The notes under the pieces are model-generated. The model was not told the DNA's origin. It saw only the letters and a program-made list of their open reading frames with translations, and searched no databases. This document shows positions 2,396 through 32,587 of a stretch of 40,107 nucleotides of DNA, in pieces. Source of the DNA: a virus; the IMG/VR virus record IMGVR_UViG_3300049255_000036, positions 1-40,107 of that record; one strand, written 5' to 3'. The position numbers and the translations under genes are program-made. Positions within the stretch are counted from its first letter, which is position 1. Each line of letters opens with the position of its first letter.

Positions 2396-2538
2396 TTGTG
2401 CTTGAAAGTGCTTTGAAAGCCTGCAGCGTAACGCTGCTGCTCGCGCTATTTCTTGAGCTGCTTGGCGTGCCACCTAACTACGGGACGGTCTTCGGGGTGC
2501 TGTTTGGCGCGTACTTGGCTCAAGGGCTGGGGTTGTGA
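2392..2538 (+). CDS. Small membrane protein (48 aa)
   Basis: GTG 2392 has a strong GGAGG at 2383-2387 and overlaps the phosphoesterase stop by 4 nt (GTGA). The peptide has two hydrophobic stretches, about residues 12-25 (VTLLLALFLELLGV) and 32-47 (TVFGVLFGAYLAQGLG), separated by PPNYG. It therefore looks like a two-helix inner-membrane miniprotein. A role in lysis or host takeover is possible but not supported further. Confidence 0.6.
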   Translation: MIVLESALKACSVTLLLALFLELLGVPPNYGTVFGVLFGAYLAQGLGL

Positions 2539-2554
2539 GAGGCTACGCCGCCAT

Positions 2555-3613
2555 ATGAGAGTGCTGTCGATCTGCAGCGGCATCGAAGCGTGCACGGTAG
2601 CGTGGCAGCCGCTAGGCTGGTCATTTGCTGCGTATGCCGAGATCGACAAATTTGCCAGCGCGGTGCTTGCGCATCGCCACCCACAGGTACCCAACCTTGG
2701 CGACTTTACAAAAATCCAACCGGCAGACATCGACGGACCAATTGACGTTCTCGTCGGAGGAACTCCTTGCCAGAGTTTCTCGATTGCAGGTTTGCGCGGC
2801 GGACTGGATGACGACCGTGGCAACCTGGCGCTTGAGTTTCTTCGACTTGCTCAAAGAATACAGCCACGCTGGTTACTCTGGGAAAATGTCCCTGGCGTCT
2901 TGTCATCGAGCCGAGGACGGGATTTTGGCTCCATCATCACGGCGATGGCTGAACTCGGGTATGGCGTCGCCTACCGAGTGCTGGACGCTCAATACTGGGG
3001 ACTGGCACAGCGCCGCAAGCGTGTGTTTGTTGTCGGATATTCTGGAGATTGGCGACGTGCCGTTGCGGTACTTTTTGAGCGCGAAAGCCTGTCTCGGGAC
3101 ACTGCGCCGCGCCGCAAAGCGCGGGAGGACCTTGCACCCACAATTGTCGCGCGCTCTACGGGAGGTGGCGGACTCGGAACCAACTTCGACCTCGACGGAG
3201 GATTGATCGCGCGACCATTGCTTGCCGGCGGTCACGCAAATAATCCGCTTGATGAAAACGCCATTGCTGGCGTGTACGATAAGAGTCACGCAAACGGCGG
3301 TGTGCAGGTCGCTGTCGCGCAAGCAATCGGTGTTCGGCGGCTGACACCGCGCGAGTGCGAGCGATTGCAGGGGTTTCCCGACGATTATACGCGCATACCC
3401 GTGAGAACCTATAAAAATCCGCCGCGCGGCAAGCACCGGCAGAAATACCCGGAGCTTTACGAAGTCAACGCTGACGGCAGTTGCACGCGTTTCGCTGCGG
3501 ACCGTCCTCGGTACCGCGTGCTCGGTAATTCGATGCCTGTGCCGATTATGCGCTGGATTGGCGAGCGCATACAGCAGGTGGACACAATTCAAGAAGGGAA
3601 GCTAGCGGCATGA
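2555..3613 (+). CDS. DNA (cytosine-5-)-methyltransferase
   Basis: Transfers a methyl group from S-adenosylmethionine to C5 of cytosine in a specific DNA site. The 352-aa product shows the C5-MTase motif order: SICSGIEA at 5-12 (motif I, SAM binding), GGTPCQSFS at 68-76 (motif IV, catalytic Cys72), ENVPG at 110-114 (motif VI), QRRKRVFVVG near 150 (motif VIII), a variable recognition region, then RECERLQGFPDDY and LGNSM (motifs IX-X). Start ATG 2555 is chosen because the protein then begins right at motif I; the longer frame from 2453 runs through the upstream membrane gene. No cognate endonuclease lies beside it, so it is probably an orphan enzyme masking phage DNA from host restriction. The target site is not readable. 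Confidence 0.95.
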   Translation: MRVLSICSGIEACTVAWQPLGWSFAAYAEIDKFASAVLAHRHPQVPNLGDFTKIQPADIDGPIDVLVGGTPCQSFSIAGLRGGLDDDRGNLALEFLRLAQRIQPRWLLWENVPGVLSSSRGRDFGSIITAMAELGYGVAYRVLDAQYWGLAQRRKRVFVVGYSGDWRRAVAVLFERESLSRDTAPRRKAREDLAPTIVARSTGGGGLGTNFDLDGGLIARPLLAGGHANNPLDENAIAGVYDKSHANGGVQVAVAQAIGVRRLTPRECERLQGFPDDYTRIPVRTYKNPPRGKHRQKYPELYEVNADGSCTRFAADRPRYRVLGNSMPVPIMRWIGERIQQVDTIQEGKLAA

Positions 3614-13436: not shown

Positions 13437-13691
13437 ATGCCGGCCGTCAGCAAGGCGCAGGCCGCTTTCATGGCAATGTCCGAGTCGCCAAAAGGTCGCG
13501 CCAAGCTCAAGTCCTCAGGTAAAAAGCCAGCACCAACCGCAGTCGCCAGAGACTTCGTCGCAGCCGACAAGGGTAAAACCAAGTCATTACCTAAGCGTGC
13601 TCCAAAGCGCAAAAAGCCTGCAAGTAACAAACTATCTAATATTAAGACTAAACGCATTAAACCCGCACCGGACACAGACAACAGCGAATGA
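13437..13691 (+). CDS. DUF3008-like small basic protein (84 aa)
   Basis: The N-terminus MPAVSKAQAAFMAMSESPKG matches the start of small phage/bacterial proteins of the DUF3008 type (MPxxSKAQQ...). ARDFVAADKGKTKSLPKR then follows a recurring phage pattern. The C-terminal half is lysine/proline-rich and probably unfolded. Its stop overlaps the next start as ATGA. Function unknown; nucleic-acid binding is possible given the charge. Confidence 0.75.
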   Translation: MPAVSKAQAAFMAMSESPKGRAKLKSSGKKPAPTAVARDFVAADKGKTKSLPKRAPKRKKPASNKLSNIKTKRIKPAPDTDNSE

Positions 13692-14140
13692 GTATTCAGA
13701 TGGTGGACGATGTGAAGACCGTTACACCATCTGCACCGGTCGCACAGCTTGCAGTTACAACCGAAAAGAAACCGCCTCACCGTTTCCAGCCCGGTCAGTC
13801 AGGAAACCCCGCCGGACGGCCTAAAGGAGCGCGAAGCAAGCTAGGCGAGGCATTTCTTGAGGCGATGCTCAAGTCCTTTGAAGAGGGCGGCGCTGACGCA
13901 ATTATGCGCGTTAGGGACCGGCAACCTGAGAAATACTTATCTGCTCTCGTTTCTATTTTGCCTAAGCAAGTTGAGATCGACGGCGACGTGCAGGTAAAGG
14001 TTACCAGCGCGGTCGACAGCCTCGTAGCAAAGCTCGCGGCTCTCAACGCGCGCGAAAAGGAATATGAAGCGGATCGCACGGAGGCCGGCATGAAGACGAT
14101 TGAGCATCAGCCGCTTACTGTTGAGAAGGTCAGCACGTGA
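13688..14140 (+). CDS. DUF5681-containing protein, candidate small terminase subunit
   Basis: Residues about 30-50 contain FQPGQSGNPAGRPKGARSKL, the signature of DUF5681, a domain often found at the N-terminus of phage TerS-like proteins. The rest is helical (GEAFLEAMLKSFEEGG, SAVDSLVAKLAALNAREKEY). TerS recognises viral DNA and loads TerL. TerL lies 4.1 kb downstream, an unusually long separation, so the role is likely but not certain. The ATG overlaps the upstream stop. Confidence 0.75.
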   Translation: MSIQMVDDVKTVTPSAPVAQLAVTTEKKPPHRFQPGQSGNPAGRPKGARSKLGEAFLEAMLKSFEEGGADAIMRVRDRQPEKYLSALVSILPKQVEIDGDVQVKVTSAVDSLVAKLAALNAREKEYEADRTEAGMKTIEHQPLTVEKVST

Positions 14141-14211: not shown

Positions 14212-14625
14212 CACGCATAAGATGGCAGCTGTGTAACTTTGCGTTTCGAGTTTTCGGCCGGACAAGGATCAGGACCTCGCCTCGGACTGCTTATTTGGCG
14301 CCAAAACCCTAGCCTCACGCTCGCGCTATATAAATCTACAGCCGCCGCGGTCGTCACAGTTCGACCATAATTTGACCGCATAGAGACCACATTCGGATCG
14401 AGCGTCTTCTCCTGTATTAGATGCTCCCATACAATAAAGCCTTATGTATCAATGGTTTATGATACAAAGCATGCTTTAGGCGGACGCTAAGGCGGACGAT
14501 ACGCCGCCGGTTGACTCACCCTCTACTTGTGACCACCCGGCCCAGGAAAACGGGACACCGTATCGCGCTAATTCACTGGTGCGCAGGAATTTTTGAAAAT
14601 CCGGATTTGAGTGTGTTTTTAGTGC
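14212..14625. other. Non-coding region with palindromes
   Basis: No credible ORF. Notable are the inverted repeat TGTATCA-N8-TGATACA (14445-14466), the perfect 12-bp palindrome AAAGCATGCTTT (14466-14477), a GGCGGACG doublet (14479-14498) and the first copy of a 45-bp direct repeat. The palindromes touch each other, suggesting an operator or recombination site just upstream of the repeat-flanked cassette. Confidence 0.5.
14496..14540 (+). repeat. 45-bp perfect direct repeat, left copy
   Basis: Identical in all 45 positions to 15201-15245; begins ACGATACGCCGCC and ends GACCACCCGG. It carries the imperfect palindrome GGTTGACTCACC. Sequence outside the copies is unrelated on both sides. Together they enclose a promoter and two small genes. 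Confidence 0.9.
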
Positions 14626-14654
14626 TTGACAACTACGCGCAATGAGCGTATATA
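14626..14654 (+). promoter_or_regulatory. Strong sigma70-type promoter
   Basis: TTGACA (14626-14631), perfect for -35, and TATATA (14649-14654) are 17 bp apart. Transcription would start about 14661, 58 nt before the start codon of the gene at 14719. This is the best promoter match in the window and gives the cassette its own transcription. Confidence 0.7.
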
Positions 14655-14718
14655 TCAAGTCATGGTTAGCACGTCGCTAACCGGCGCGCCTCGGCAAATC
14701 AGGGGCTTGGAGATGAAG

Positions 14719-14961
14719 ATGAGCAACTACAACGACCTGTCCCTTTACCTTGTGTCCGAAGGCGAGGTAAAGCCTGCTACTGTTGATACCAAGTACGACG
14801 GCGCCAACTCCATCCTGGTCGCCGCCACTTCGGAGGACGGCGCGATGAAGGTCGCTGCTGCCTACGACGAGGGACTTGCGCAAGCCGACAACATCTTTTG
14901 GGGCGGCGCGACTATAGCCGCTGTCACGCTGCGCGACCGCGACACAGGTCTTTATGCCTAA
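14719..14961 (+). CDS. Hypothetical cassette protein (80 aa)
   Basis: ATG 14719 is chosen because GGAG (14708-14711) is seven bases upstream; ATG 14713 would be too close and the frame start at 14626 precedes the promoter. The product begins MSNYNDLSLYLVSEGEVKPA and is acidic with alternating beta and alpha elements. Its family is not recognised. First gene of the two-gene module between the 45-bp repeats; overlaps the second by 8 nt. Confidence 0.65.
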   Translation: MSNYNDLSLYLVSEGEVKPATVDTKYDGANSILVAATSEDGAMKVAAAYDEGLAQADNIFWGGATIAAVTLRDRDTGLYA

Positions 14962-15184
14962 CCACCCTAACCGAGGCCCGAAAGGGCCTCGTTCCAATCC
15001 TGCGTCCGCAGACATCATTGCAGGCCGAGAGGCCGCTGGTTTGACGCAGACGCAGGCCGCTGGCCTGGTGTATAGCTCTCTGCGGACATGGCAGCAATGG
15101 GAGGCCGGAGACAGGCGGATGCACGCCGGGCTGTGGGAGCTTTTTAGGCTAAAGACTGAGCTCATTGAGCGCCCCGCGAAGTAG
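14954..15184 (+). CDS. Xre-type helix-turn-helix protein (76 aa)
   Basis: Residues about 18-65 form a lambda-repressor-like HTH: ADIIAGREAAGLTQTQAAGL, YSSLRTWQQWEAGDRRM, then LWELFRLKTEL. The N-terminal 17 residues are a Pro/Gly/Arg-rich arm encoded over a GAAA-capped hairpin (14972-14991). It overlaps the preceding gene by 8 nt. It may regulate the promoter at 14626 or act on phage/host genes. Confidence 0.82.
   Translation: MPNHPNRGPKGPRSNPASADIIAGREAAGLTQTQAAGLVYSSLRTWQQWEAGDRRMHAGLWELFRLKTELIERPAK
14972..14991 (+). other. GNRA-capped hairpin at start of the Xre gene
   Basis: CGAGGCCC pairs with GGGCCTCG around GAAA, an 8-bp stem with a stable tetraloop, only 18 nt after the start codon of the Xre-type gene and 11 nt after the stop of the previous one. 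Only two T follow, so termination would be weak; translational damping is an alternative. Confidence 0.5.
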
Positions 15185-15200
15185 TCGTTCCCACACTCAA

Positions 15201-15245
15201 ACGATACGCCGCCGGTTGACTCACCCTCTACTTGTGACCACCCGG
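15201..15245 (+). repeat. 45-bp perfect direct repeat, right copy
   Basis: Second copy of the 14496-14540 repeat, 705 bp downstream and 16 bp after the Xre-type gene. It is followed by a CCCGG/CCGGG hairpin with a T-rich loop (15241-15258). Confidence 0.9.
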
Positions 15246-15646: not shown

Positions 15647-16267
15647 ATGCAAGATGCCGACCTTTACGCTGTGCTGGATGTGCCTCGCGAGGCAACAACC
15701 GCCGAAATACGGCGCGCATACCGTCGCAAAGCCAAAAAAGCGCACCCAGACAACGGCGGCACTGCTCATGAGTTTGACGCGCTCAACAAAGCGCACCGCG
15801 TGCTAAGCGACGACACCACTCGCGCACGCTACGATCAGACCGGCGAAGCAGAGGCACCGCAGCCGGACGATCTACAAACCGCCGCTCTCGAAATGATAAG
15901 CCAGTCCCTTTCAAGATACCTGCTGGCCGAAGAAGACATCGCCGAGCGCGACCTTGTTACGGAGATGGCGACCTGCTTTAGCCTAGAGCGGCGGAACGTG
16001 CAAAAAGAGCTGCGCACCTTGCAGTCAGCAAAAGCCAAAGCAGAAAAAGCAGCCGAGCTGTTCGAAAAGAAAAGCGAAGGCGACAATGTGATGCTTCGCA
16101 TCGCAAACTGGCACATTAAGACGATCGTCCAAAACATTGCCAGCGGCGAGCGCGTGCTGAGCCGCTACGACCGCACGTTAGAAATTCTCAGCGACTACAA
16201 ATACAACTGCCGCAGCCAACGGTACGCGACACTACCGCCGCCTCTCGGCGCAGGAGGTCTGTGGTAA
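15647..16267 (+). CDS. DnaJ-like J-domain protein
   Basis: Residues 1-63 are a clear J domain: YAVLDVPREATTAEIRRAYR, the HPD motif at 33-35, and FDALNKAHRVLSDDTTRARYD. J domains stimulate the ATPase of DnaK/Hsp70. The C-terminal 140 residues are helical with a likely coiled coil (LEMISQSLSRYLL, RTLQSAKAKAEKAAELFEKK) and are not a known DnaJ client domain; there is no Gly/Phe or zinc region. It would recruit host DnaK to a phage process such as replication-complex remodelling or assembly. Start ATG 15647 has AAAGG about ten bases upstream. Confidence 0.9.
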   Translation: MQDADLYAVLDVPREATTAEIRRAYRRKAKKAHPDNGGTAHEFDALNKAHRVLSDDTTRARYDQTGEAEAPQPDDLQTAALEMISQSLSRYLLAEEDIAERDLVTEMATCFSLERRNVQKELRTLQSAKAKAEKAAELFEKKSEGDNVMLRIANWHIKTIVQNIASGERVLSRYDRTLEILSDYKYNCRSQRYATLPPPLGAGGLW

Positions 16268-30985: not shown

Positions 30986-32587
30986 GTGGTAGCCACCGTC
31001 GTCTTTTTTACCACCACAGGTGCACAGACTTGGACTGTGCCGGCCAACGTAACCTCAATCCAAATTGAGGGCATTGGCGGCGGCCAAGGCGGTCACGGTA
31101 GCCTCGTTGCCACTGGAACGGCTAATCCCATTGGCGGCGCGTATGCAACTTCTACGTTAACCGTTTCTCCTGGCAATACTGTTTATTTGTCGATTGGATC
31201 AGCGGGAAGCGGTTCTAGCGGAACATCTGTTGGCGGCACAGGTGGCGACACATGGGTTAACATTTCTACCAATGCCGCACCGTCAAGTGCATCCAACGGC
31301 GTTCTGGCAACAGGTGGAAACAGCTCCAGCACAAGCGTAGGCACGACGATTAATGCTGGCGGCGCAGGCGGCACTGTCCAAGCCTATTACGGTAAGTCTG
31401 GAGGCGGAGGCGCGGGCGGCCCTTCTGGTGCTGGATCTGCCGGTTCAAACGGAACTTCATATTCTACTGGTGGCGCAGGTGGAGCTGCTAACGGCGGTTC
31501 CCCATCAGGAGGAGCAGGCGGCAATGGCAGCATCGGCACGGCCGGGTCAGCAAATGCCGTCTGGACGCAAACGAGCAATTCGGCGACGGCTGGTCCTGGG
31601 TCCGGCGGCGGCGGCGGCGGAGGCACTTCAAACGGCACCGCGGGTTATAACGGAGGCGCTGGCGCTAATTATGGCGGCGCAGGCGGCGGCGGCGGTTATG
31701 GCTCATACATAAAAGGCATCGGCGCAAATGGTGGCCAAGGCATCGTCATCATCACTTATACAACCACAACCCAGACCGATGCCGGTTTATTTCAACCATC
31801 CGAACTTTTAAAACATTCAACCCACCTCGATACAAACCAAGCGTTTGTTTACAACCCACCGGCTGCCGCACCGACCGGTTGGTACGTGCAGCCGCAGGAT
31901 TTGCTTCGGCACCCGCCGCACCTCGACACTAACCAAAGCTTTGTGTACTTACCGCCTGCTGGGTACCCGACGCCAAGCGCGTTTTGGTATATTCAGCCGC
32001 CGGATCTGTTGTGGCATCCGCCGACCTTAGACACTCGGCAGCAGTTTGTTTACGCAGCACCCGCTGCGGCACCGAATGGATGGTATATTCAGCCGCCGGA
32101 TCTGTTGTGGCATCCGCCGACCTTAGACACTCGGCAGCAGTTTGTTTACGCAGCACCCGCTGCGGCACCGAATGGATGGTACACTCAGCCGCCGGATCTG
32201 CTGCGCCACTCACCACAGCTTGATACCAACCAGCTTGGCTTTTTGCCAGCGCCGGGTGTTCAAACTCCTACTATCTATTTCTGGTCGCAACCGCCGGATC
32301 TGCTGCGACATCCGACCGGTATTGATACACGGCAGCCGTTTGCTTACAACCCACCGACCCCGCCACCAAACGGGTGGTTTAAGCAGCCGCCGGATATACT
32401 AAAGCATCCACTGCACCTCGACACTAACCAAAGCTTTGTCTATAACGCGCTTAACGTTCCAAGCCACGGCTGGTACGTGCAGCCGCCAGACCTTTTGAAC
32501 CACCCAAGACAGCTTGATACCAACCAACCGTTCAGGTCAATTGCCGGTACCATCACCCCGCCGTCGCCATCAATTCTAGTTTTCTAA
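30986..32587 (+). CDS. Glycine-rich protein with C-terminal 32-residue repeats (533 aa)
   Basis: GTG 30986. Residues 1-40 form a small beta-rich head (TTTGAQTWTVPANVTSIQIE). Residues about 30-255 are a glycine/serine-rich region as in many tail-fibre tips and adhesins. From about 265 to 515 there are eight copies of a unit with WYxQPPDLL, then a His-Pro pair, then LDTxQxFVY and a Pro-rich link. Two neighbouring copies are identical at DNA level. Likely an extended fibre or head-surface protein that varies by repeat number. Confidence 0.8.
   Translation: MVATVVFFTTTGAQTWTVPANVTSIQIEGIGGGQGGHGSLVATGTANPIGGAYATSTLTVSPGNTVYLSIGSAGSGSSGTSVGGTGGDTWVNISTNAAPSSASNGVLATGGNSSSTSVGTTINAGGAGGTVQAYYGKSGGGGAGGPSGAGSAGSNGTSYSTGGAGGAANGGSPSGGAGGNGSIGTAGSANAVWTQTSNSATAGPGSGGGGGGGTSNGTAGYNGGAGANYGGAGGGGGYGSYIKGIGANGGQGIVIITYTTTTQTDAGLFQPSELLKHSTHLDTNQAFVYNPPAAAPTGWYVQPQDLLRHPPHLDTNQSFVYLPPAGYPTPSAFWYIQPPDLLWHPPTLDTRQQFVYAAPAAAPNGWYIQPPDLLWHPPTLDTRQQFVYAAPAAAPNGWYTQPPDLLRHSPQLDTNQLGFLPAPGVQTPTIYFWSQPPDLLRHPTGIDTRQPFAYNPPTPPPNGWFKQPPDILKHPLHLDTNQSFVYNALNVPSHGWYVQPPDLLNHPRQLDTNQPFRSIAGTITPPSPSILVF
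31985..32176 (+). repeat. Perfect 96-bp tandem duplication
   Basis: 31985-32080 and 32081-32176 are identical, 96 bp (32 codons) each, beginning TGGTATATTCAGCCGCC. The following unit has diverged. This is a recent in-frame duplication in the repeat protein gene. Confidence 0.93.

Follow-up and report, generated by a model that had tools for sequence, protein, structure and literature searches.

Aca10 proteins repress acr operons (PMC9410881, PMC9410906), and the published 19-bp Aca10 operator reads ATACGCTCATTGAGCGTAT (PMC9410881). Among the closest described systems is acrIC7-acrIC6-aca10 of Pseudomonas citronellolis (PMC7913775, PMC9410881; PDB 7XI5); like the locus analysed here, this operon has an Aca10-family last gene with the DNA-binding Arg, a palindromic operator in the promoter, and one or more small upstream genes. 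Mobile insertion cassettes are a recognised kind of element, for which PMC6542083 cites MIC231 of Bacillus cereus.

The DNA analysed (hereafter, the window) is a 40,107-bp virus record of IMG/VR encoding a large terminase subunit, an SU10-like portal and a VapE-type primase/helicase. A C5-type DNA methyltransferase gene with PADLOC type II MTase matches is located at 2453-3613. The module studied has a DUF5681 gene (13688-14140) on its left and a DnaJ-domain gene (15647-16267) on its right. Its best explanation, with a probability of about 0.8, is that positions 14595-15209 are a non-autonomous ISL3-type cassette carrying an acr-aca10-type operon. The features of the site are:

14496..14540, + strand: 45-bp repeat, copy 1; external to the cassette, whose left inverted repeat starts 54 bp further on; unmatched in relatives
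14587..14594, + strand: presumed left target-site sequence GAATTTTT; AT-rich like the duplications of the relatives, no match on the right
14595..15209, + strand: proposed transposase-less ISL3-type mobile insertion cassette, 615 bp, delimited by relatives
14595..14618, + strand: left terminal inverted repeat GAAAATCCGGATTTGAGTGTGTTT (L215 end, GGGTATCCGGATTTGAGTGTGTTT); outer tip degenerate
14626..14654, + strand: sigma-70-type promoter TTGACA-17-TATATA, conserved in L176
14633..14651, + strand: putative Aca10-type operator CTACGCGCAATGAGCGTAT, over the -10 element; 3 mismatches in 19 to the published site
14663..14683, + strand: hairpin in the leader RNA, for which relatives show compensatory changes
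14713..14961, + strand: P0001, 82 aa; candidate protein against CRISPR-Cas or another defence; L176 and L131 have homologs
14954..15184, + strand: P0002, 76 aa, predicted Aca10-family HTH autorepressor; R54 corresponds to Aca10 R44
15191..15209, - strand: right terminal inverted repeat, damaged, CCACACTCAAACGATACGC; relatives have CACACTCAAATCCGGATACCC, L087 has CACACTCAAATCCGATACC
15201..15245, + strand: 45-bp repeat, copy 2; shares ~9 nt at its start with the right inverted repeat

Ends, relatives and parent transposon of the cassette

The conserved unit 14595-15209 is framed by terminal inverted repeats (GGGTATCCGGATTTGAGTGTG) located inside the 45-bp repeats. Compared with L176, a locus in a Hyphomicrobiales MAG, the window DNA was ~80% identical from ATCCGGATTTGAGTGTG to CACACYCAAA/CACACTCAAA, with no similarity outside, and the similarity to L086 and L087 ended at the same limits. 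The sequence at one limit recurs in inverted orientation at the other. The 45-bp repeats, taken as the cassette ends in a previous sequence-only reading, were given up in this role, since similarity to all three relatives is bounded by the terminal inverted repeats inside them.

No transposase-like or sufficiently long ORF was present in 14595-15209, where the genes are P0001 and P0002. An autonomous ISL3-family transposon has a transposase between its ends; the window unit is without one, and the term mobile insertion cassette was therefore chosen. ISL3-matching ends (the right one partial), the lack of a transposase and the presence of passengers agree with this class. The 8-bp target-site duplication was absent, GAATTTTT and CGCCGGTT beside the ends differing except at 2/8 positions, and because of this the label is based on the ends and on what the relatives show. 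Mobility was read from the ends and target duplications of the relatives, and for the window we infer it. The window copy is probably immobile now, both tips being damaged and no target duplication being present. Its right end is not attC-like, which sets it apart from integron gene cassettes.

The 15-bp end was found as inverted pairs in 2/399 genomes (G542, G299), in the order of Variovorax (Burkholderiales). The 2.9-kb element L215 (G299:C65) encodes a 473-aa transposase with PF01610 (E=8.8e-63), HTH_Tnp_ISL3 and Zn_ribbon_ISL3, and one of its ends is identical to the left end of the window unit at 21/24 positions, the outer tip alone differing. The related element L214 has an inverted end pair and a transposase split into shorter ORFs. 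In L217, a single such end adjoins an ISL3 transposase gene (PF01610, E=2.3e-59). ISL3 elements create 8-bp duplications, and one is seen in L215. The passengers of L215, L214 and L217 include a HepT/nucleotidyltransferase (HEPN-MNT) pair, checked against Pfam in L215 only. The IS1595 transposase of record G004 was dropped as a candidate parent, no matching ends being found around it. An IS1595-family transposase adjoining a protease-like ORF was also seen in viral contigs (L205:1-888, L201:4117-5217).

Further units were found in viral contigs by an inverted-repeat search (L171, L219 and the short L220 and L221). Besides the window, the comparison took in eleven units whose ends are of this type or a variant of it (L087, L091, L102, L103, L171, L176, L214, L215, L219, L220 and L221). 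Perfect 8-bp target-site duplications were present in 8/11 (AAAAAATA, GGAAATTG, GATTTTTC, CTTTTTCG, GAAATACT, GTCGAAAC, CTAAATTT, GAAATAAT); the other three were without a perfect duplication, a ninth unit matching at 7/8 positions. Non-self pairings of flanks gave 8/8 matches in 0/110 cases, permutations reached eight in 0/20,000, and the signal was lost at an offset of 1. That one end length fits eight duplications is not expected by chance, though the test was unblinded, the end positions having been set by eye after the flanks had been viewed. An inverted-repeat search across the order of the L176 genome returned, apart from the copy already known, no more than one weak single match, and such ends were absent from the homologs examined on Klebsiella and Xanthomonas plasmids.

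The cargo of these units varies. At L171:7051-7627 (577 bp), a phage-type DNA methyltransferase (PHROG 954) lies alone between the same ends, with the duplication GAAATACT. At L219:860-1861 (1002 bp), the same ends and an 8-bp duplication (CTAAATTT) enclose a different two-gene operon with its own promoter and inverted repeat, which encodes a 104-aa acidic protein and a 133-aa regulator-like protein whose C-terminus resembles, by eye, a ribbon-helix-helix domain; this is a candidate new anti-defence operon. Variant ends (GGATATCCGTAAT) with 8-bp duplications surround multi-gene aca10-type operons in L102 and L103, in which the first and last genes are common to both and the middle differs. Aca10-type operons were also observed as integron gene cassettes (L092, L106 and L145 by strict assignment; L088, L098, L101 and L161 by eye), with attC-like ends and a complementary cassette start.

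The acr-aca10-type operon

The promoter and the two genes that had been placed between the repeat copies were confirmed (TTGACA-17-TATATA, an 82-aa ORF and a 76-aa HTH ORF). The promoter had been overlooked by an automatic scan because the final base of the -10 element is not T, and it is kept in relatives. The published Aca10 operator is matched with 3 mismatches in the promoter, this being a sequence match; the next-best match in the window has 5. The operator is perfect in L176, L166 and L181. It is this separate 19-bp palindrome, and not the 45-bp repeat proposed earlier, that would serve as the operator. A GCTCATTGAGCG sequence resembling an operator lies near 15160-15172, at the 3' end of the HTH gene and close to the right cassette end; sequences of this type also occur at the 3' ends of the HTH genes in L087, L091 and L175, and are possibly a second Aca10 site.

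P0002 matched Aca10 (PDB 7XI5) with E=1.4e-23 over residues 15-71, which covers the HTH core. Its R54, equivalent to Arg44 of Aca10, was invariant in 9 aligned sequences, the position in Aca10 being taken from L181 and PMC9410881. The relatives of P0002 comprised the best 80 of 85 in viral contigs and 11 in bacterial genomes. Judged by sequence, P0002 is an Aca10-family repressor.

Homologs of P0001 were confined, among the loci compared, to L176 (80% identical) and L131 (54%), and an aca10-type gene follows in both; L176 thus has both genes, its P0002 homolog being 83% identical. A search of viral contigs with P0001 peptide patterns found none, and the L131 homolog surfaced beside an aca10-type gene. 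Comparison of P0001 with protein families, solved structures and folds gave nothing significant, and no relation to described Acrs was detectable. Its predicted fold is beta-beta-beta-alpha-beta-beta (mean pLDDT 72), without a PDB match at E <0.001. The first genes of the L087, L091 and L102 cassettes encode different proteins. P0001 was regarded as an acr candidate because it is small, first in its operon, varies between cassettes and stands ahead of an aca10-type gene; its anti-CRISPR activity is thus a candidate function proposed from guilt by association.

The leader was compared in ten sequences (L176, L131, L091, L087, L177, L181, L102, L104, L098 and the window). The hairpin, which lies between the operator and the start codon, is kept in all ten, with 84% of cells paired and five pairs changed on both sides, and its covariation exceeded all 500 shuffles and every slid version. 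A second conserved hairpin, GCGCCTCGG...AGGGGC, was seen in the leader, the two spanning window positions 14663-14706. Aca2 represses translation too, through stem-loops in the leader. The conserved pairing suggests RNA-level control of aca10-type operons through leader hairpins.

Origin of the 45-bp repeats and rival explanations

Two exact copies of the 45-bp sequence ACGATACGCCGCCGGTTGACTCACCCTCTACTTGTGACCACCCGG were confirmed at 14496-14540 and 15201-15245, spaced by 705 bp and with differing flanks. In 30 first-order Markov simulations the longest direct repeat of a window was 14-17 bp, so the 45-bp repeat is far beyond chance. The only other exact repeats of at least 18 bp in the window fall, at 31.9-32.5 kb, in an ORF with repetitive coding sequence. 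This ORF (30986-32587) contains long exact coding repeats (~97 bp) at 31918-32526, built from WYIQPPDLLWHPPTLDTRQQFVY units. The 45-bp repeat was also considered as a site-specific recombination core or terminator and rejected: its internal symmetry is imperfect, and its hairpin is no better than chance (19% of shuffles fold equally well; z=0.19 for the wider stretch).

The BLAST alignment with L087 extends to window position 15207 with a 2-nt gap and covers the seven first bases of copy 2. Copy 2 therefore begins in the right inverted repeat and extends from there into the flank; its first ~7-9 nt align with the right inverted repeat of the relatives. Copy 1, left of the cassette, carries the same tip-plus-flank sequence.

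According to the sequence-only reading, a moron-like cassette was gained, or is excised, by recombination at the 45-bp repeats, one copy being ancestral and the second having come with the cassette. The perfect identity of the copies, one on each side, would fit this, as would the nearest viral relative, which is without the cassette. However, relatives have the cassette without the repeat, the similarity ends 54 bp inside copy 1, and copy 2 starts in the right inverted repeat. Searched as an exact pattern in sampled collections of viral and genome contigs, the repeat was found nowhere else, nor at the loci of the relatives, which also speaks against its use as a recombination site. Gain by this route is rather unlikely. 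The remainder of that proposal held, namely that the cassette is acquired, self-contained and autonomously expressed. Acquisition is indicated by the ~80% identical copy in the unrelated bacterial context of L176 and by L003/L084, the viral relative that comes nearest (portal 80% identical), in whose incomplete 29.5-kb record both P0001 and P0002 are absent. With extra genes, their own promoter and absence from L003/L084, the unit also conforms to a moron. L003/L084 is too divergent at the module site for a clean empty site to be recognised, and a search for phage records with DNA similarity found none.

The repeats are probably a rearrangement scar that arose later than the insertion and not the cassette ends. 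A refinement compatible with the ISL3-type cassette, and one that we consider fairly probable, is that they are a by-product of a rearrangement, either mediated by an element or of the replication-template kind, in which the right end was damaged, through a tandem or circular intermediate, an adjacent deletion or a template switch. The start of copy 2 in the right inverted repeat and the missing target duplication are consistent with this, and the perfect identity of the copies suggests recency. Against it, the intermediate state was found in no sister phage genome, and the shared CGATAC may be micro-homology or coincidence; the order of events is one that we infer. An assembly artefact at the repeats is highly improbable: the contig is metagenomic and exact direct repeats can mark misjoins, but the cassette is contiguous in L176 with conserved order. 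Nor is 45 bp known as a k-mer length in common use by assemblers, which counts against an artefact as well.

The gene pair itself could be read as a toxin-antitoxin system with P0001 as small toxin and P0002 as HTH antitoxin-repressor, given two overlapping genes with the HTH gene second, weak MqsA/HigA-like HTH matches, and the toxin-antitoxin passengers of the parent transposon L215. P0002 is much closer to Aca10 (E=1.4e-23 versus 0.16 for HigA-2), an Aca10 operator is present, and the first genes are unrelated across cassettes, as in acr-aca loci, which makes a toxin-antitoxin pair improbable. It is scarcely credible that P0002 is a VC1465/XafT-type factor that activates Xer recombination for an element relying on it. 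The best NCBIfam match was NF040522 (E=2.6e-10) and a TLC-phage match was also obtained, but the family score of 40.3 bits lies below the cut-off of 70, the match is limited to HTH residues 24-67, no dif-like sequence was seen by eye in the repeats, and Aca10 fits far better.

Proposed mechanism and comparison with known systems

For the ISL3-type cassette, the following course is proposed. The ISL3 transposase of another element would act on the inverted repeats and insert the cassette at AT-rich 8-bp sites, here between the DUF5681 gene and the DnaJ-domain gene. Later, both tips would have decayed, and a rearrangement may have placed a copy of the right tip, together with 36 bp of the flank on that side, to the left of the cassette (or the reverse), leaving the 45-bp repeats. 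By analogy with the Aca10 literature, the strong promoter would make P0001 on infection, inhibiting CRISPR-Cas or another defence; P0002 would accumulate as a dimer, bind the palindrome over the -10 element and switch the operon off.

More broadly, and at somewhat short of even odds, transposase-less ISL3-type cassettes may be a dedicated trade route for counter-defence genes between unrelated phages, in which ISL3 transposons of the host act in trans on a single set of ends. The cargo would comprise acr-aca10-type operons, an operon of an acidic protein and a predicted ribbon-helix-helix protein, and a DNA methyltransferase; aca10-type operons would travel as integron cassettes too, and Aca10 may also control mRNA through the leader hairpin. 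The same repressor recurs with different acr genes in unrelated phages and plasmids, and the movement of such small operons is mostly unexplained. Here a vehicle is visible: its ends are inverted, target sites are duplicated over 8 bp, and the parent transposase family can be identified. The match of these ends to a bacterial transposon family suggests that phages acquire counter-defence genes in the form of very small transposons that travel with them. The spread of acr genes thereby becomes testable by a transposition assay. The ends (inverted pairs of GGGNATCCGGATTT) provide a search handle for anti-defence genes that is independent of known Acr and Aca sequences, and have already yielded the methyltransferase unit and the new two-gene operon.

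The combination of an acr-aca operon with a mobile insertion cassette, with several cargoes and in viral contigs, appears to be undescribed; no description was found in the literature searched, which covered few subscription papers. In contrast to acrIC7-acrIC6-aca10, whose locus in P. citronellolis was examined and has no ISL3-type ends, the window unit has ISL3-type inverted repeats, and P0001 shows no detectable similarity to described Acrs. ISL3 transposons with passengers (the ISPpu12 isoform, PMC4133298; L215, L214) resemble the cassettes in their inverted repeats and AT-rich 8-bp duplications, whereas the window unit is without transposase, measures 615 bp, and has acr-aca-type cargo instead of HEPN/MNT. 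Mobile insertion cassettes such as MIC231 and MITEs share with the window unit transposon ends without a transposase and, as proposed for that unit, movement in trans, the window unit having passengers; the units described here differ in their location in phage contigs, their counter-defence-type cargo and their ISL3-type ends. The integron gene cassettes of L092, L106 and L145 share the repressor family with the window, but are bounded by attC-type sites and not by inverted repeats. Finally, AcrIC6* and AcrIC8* near Tn3-family transposases (PMC7913775) are likewise acr genes associated with transposons; they adjoin a full transposon, whereas the inverted repeats of the window exactly frame one operon.
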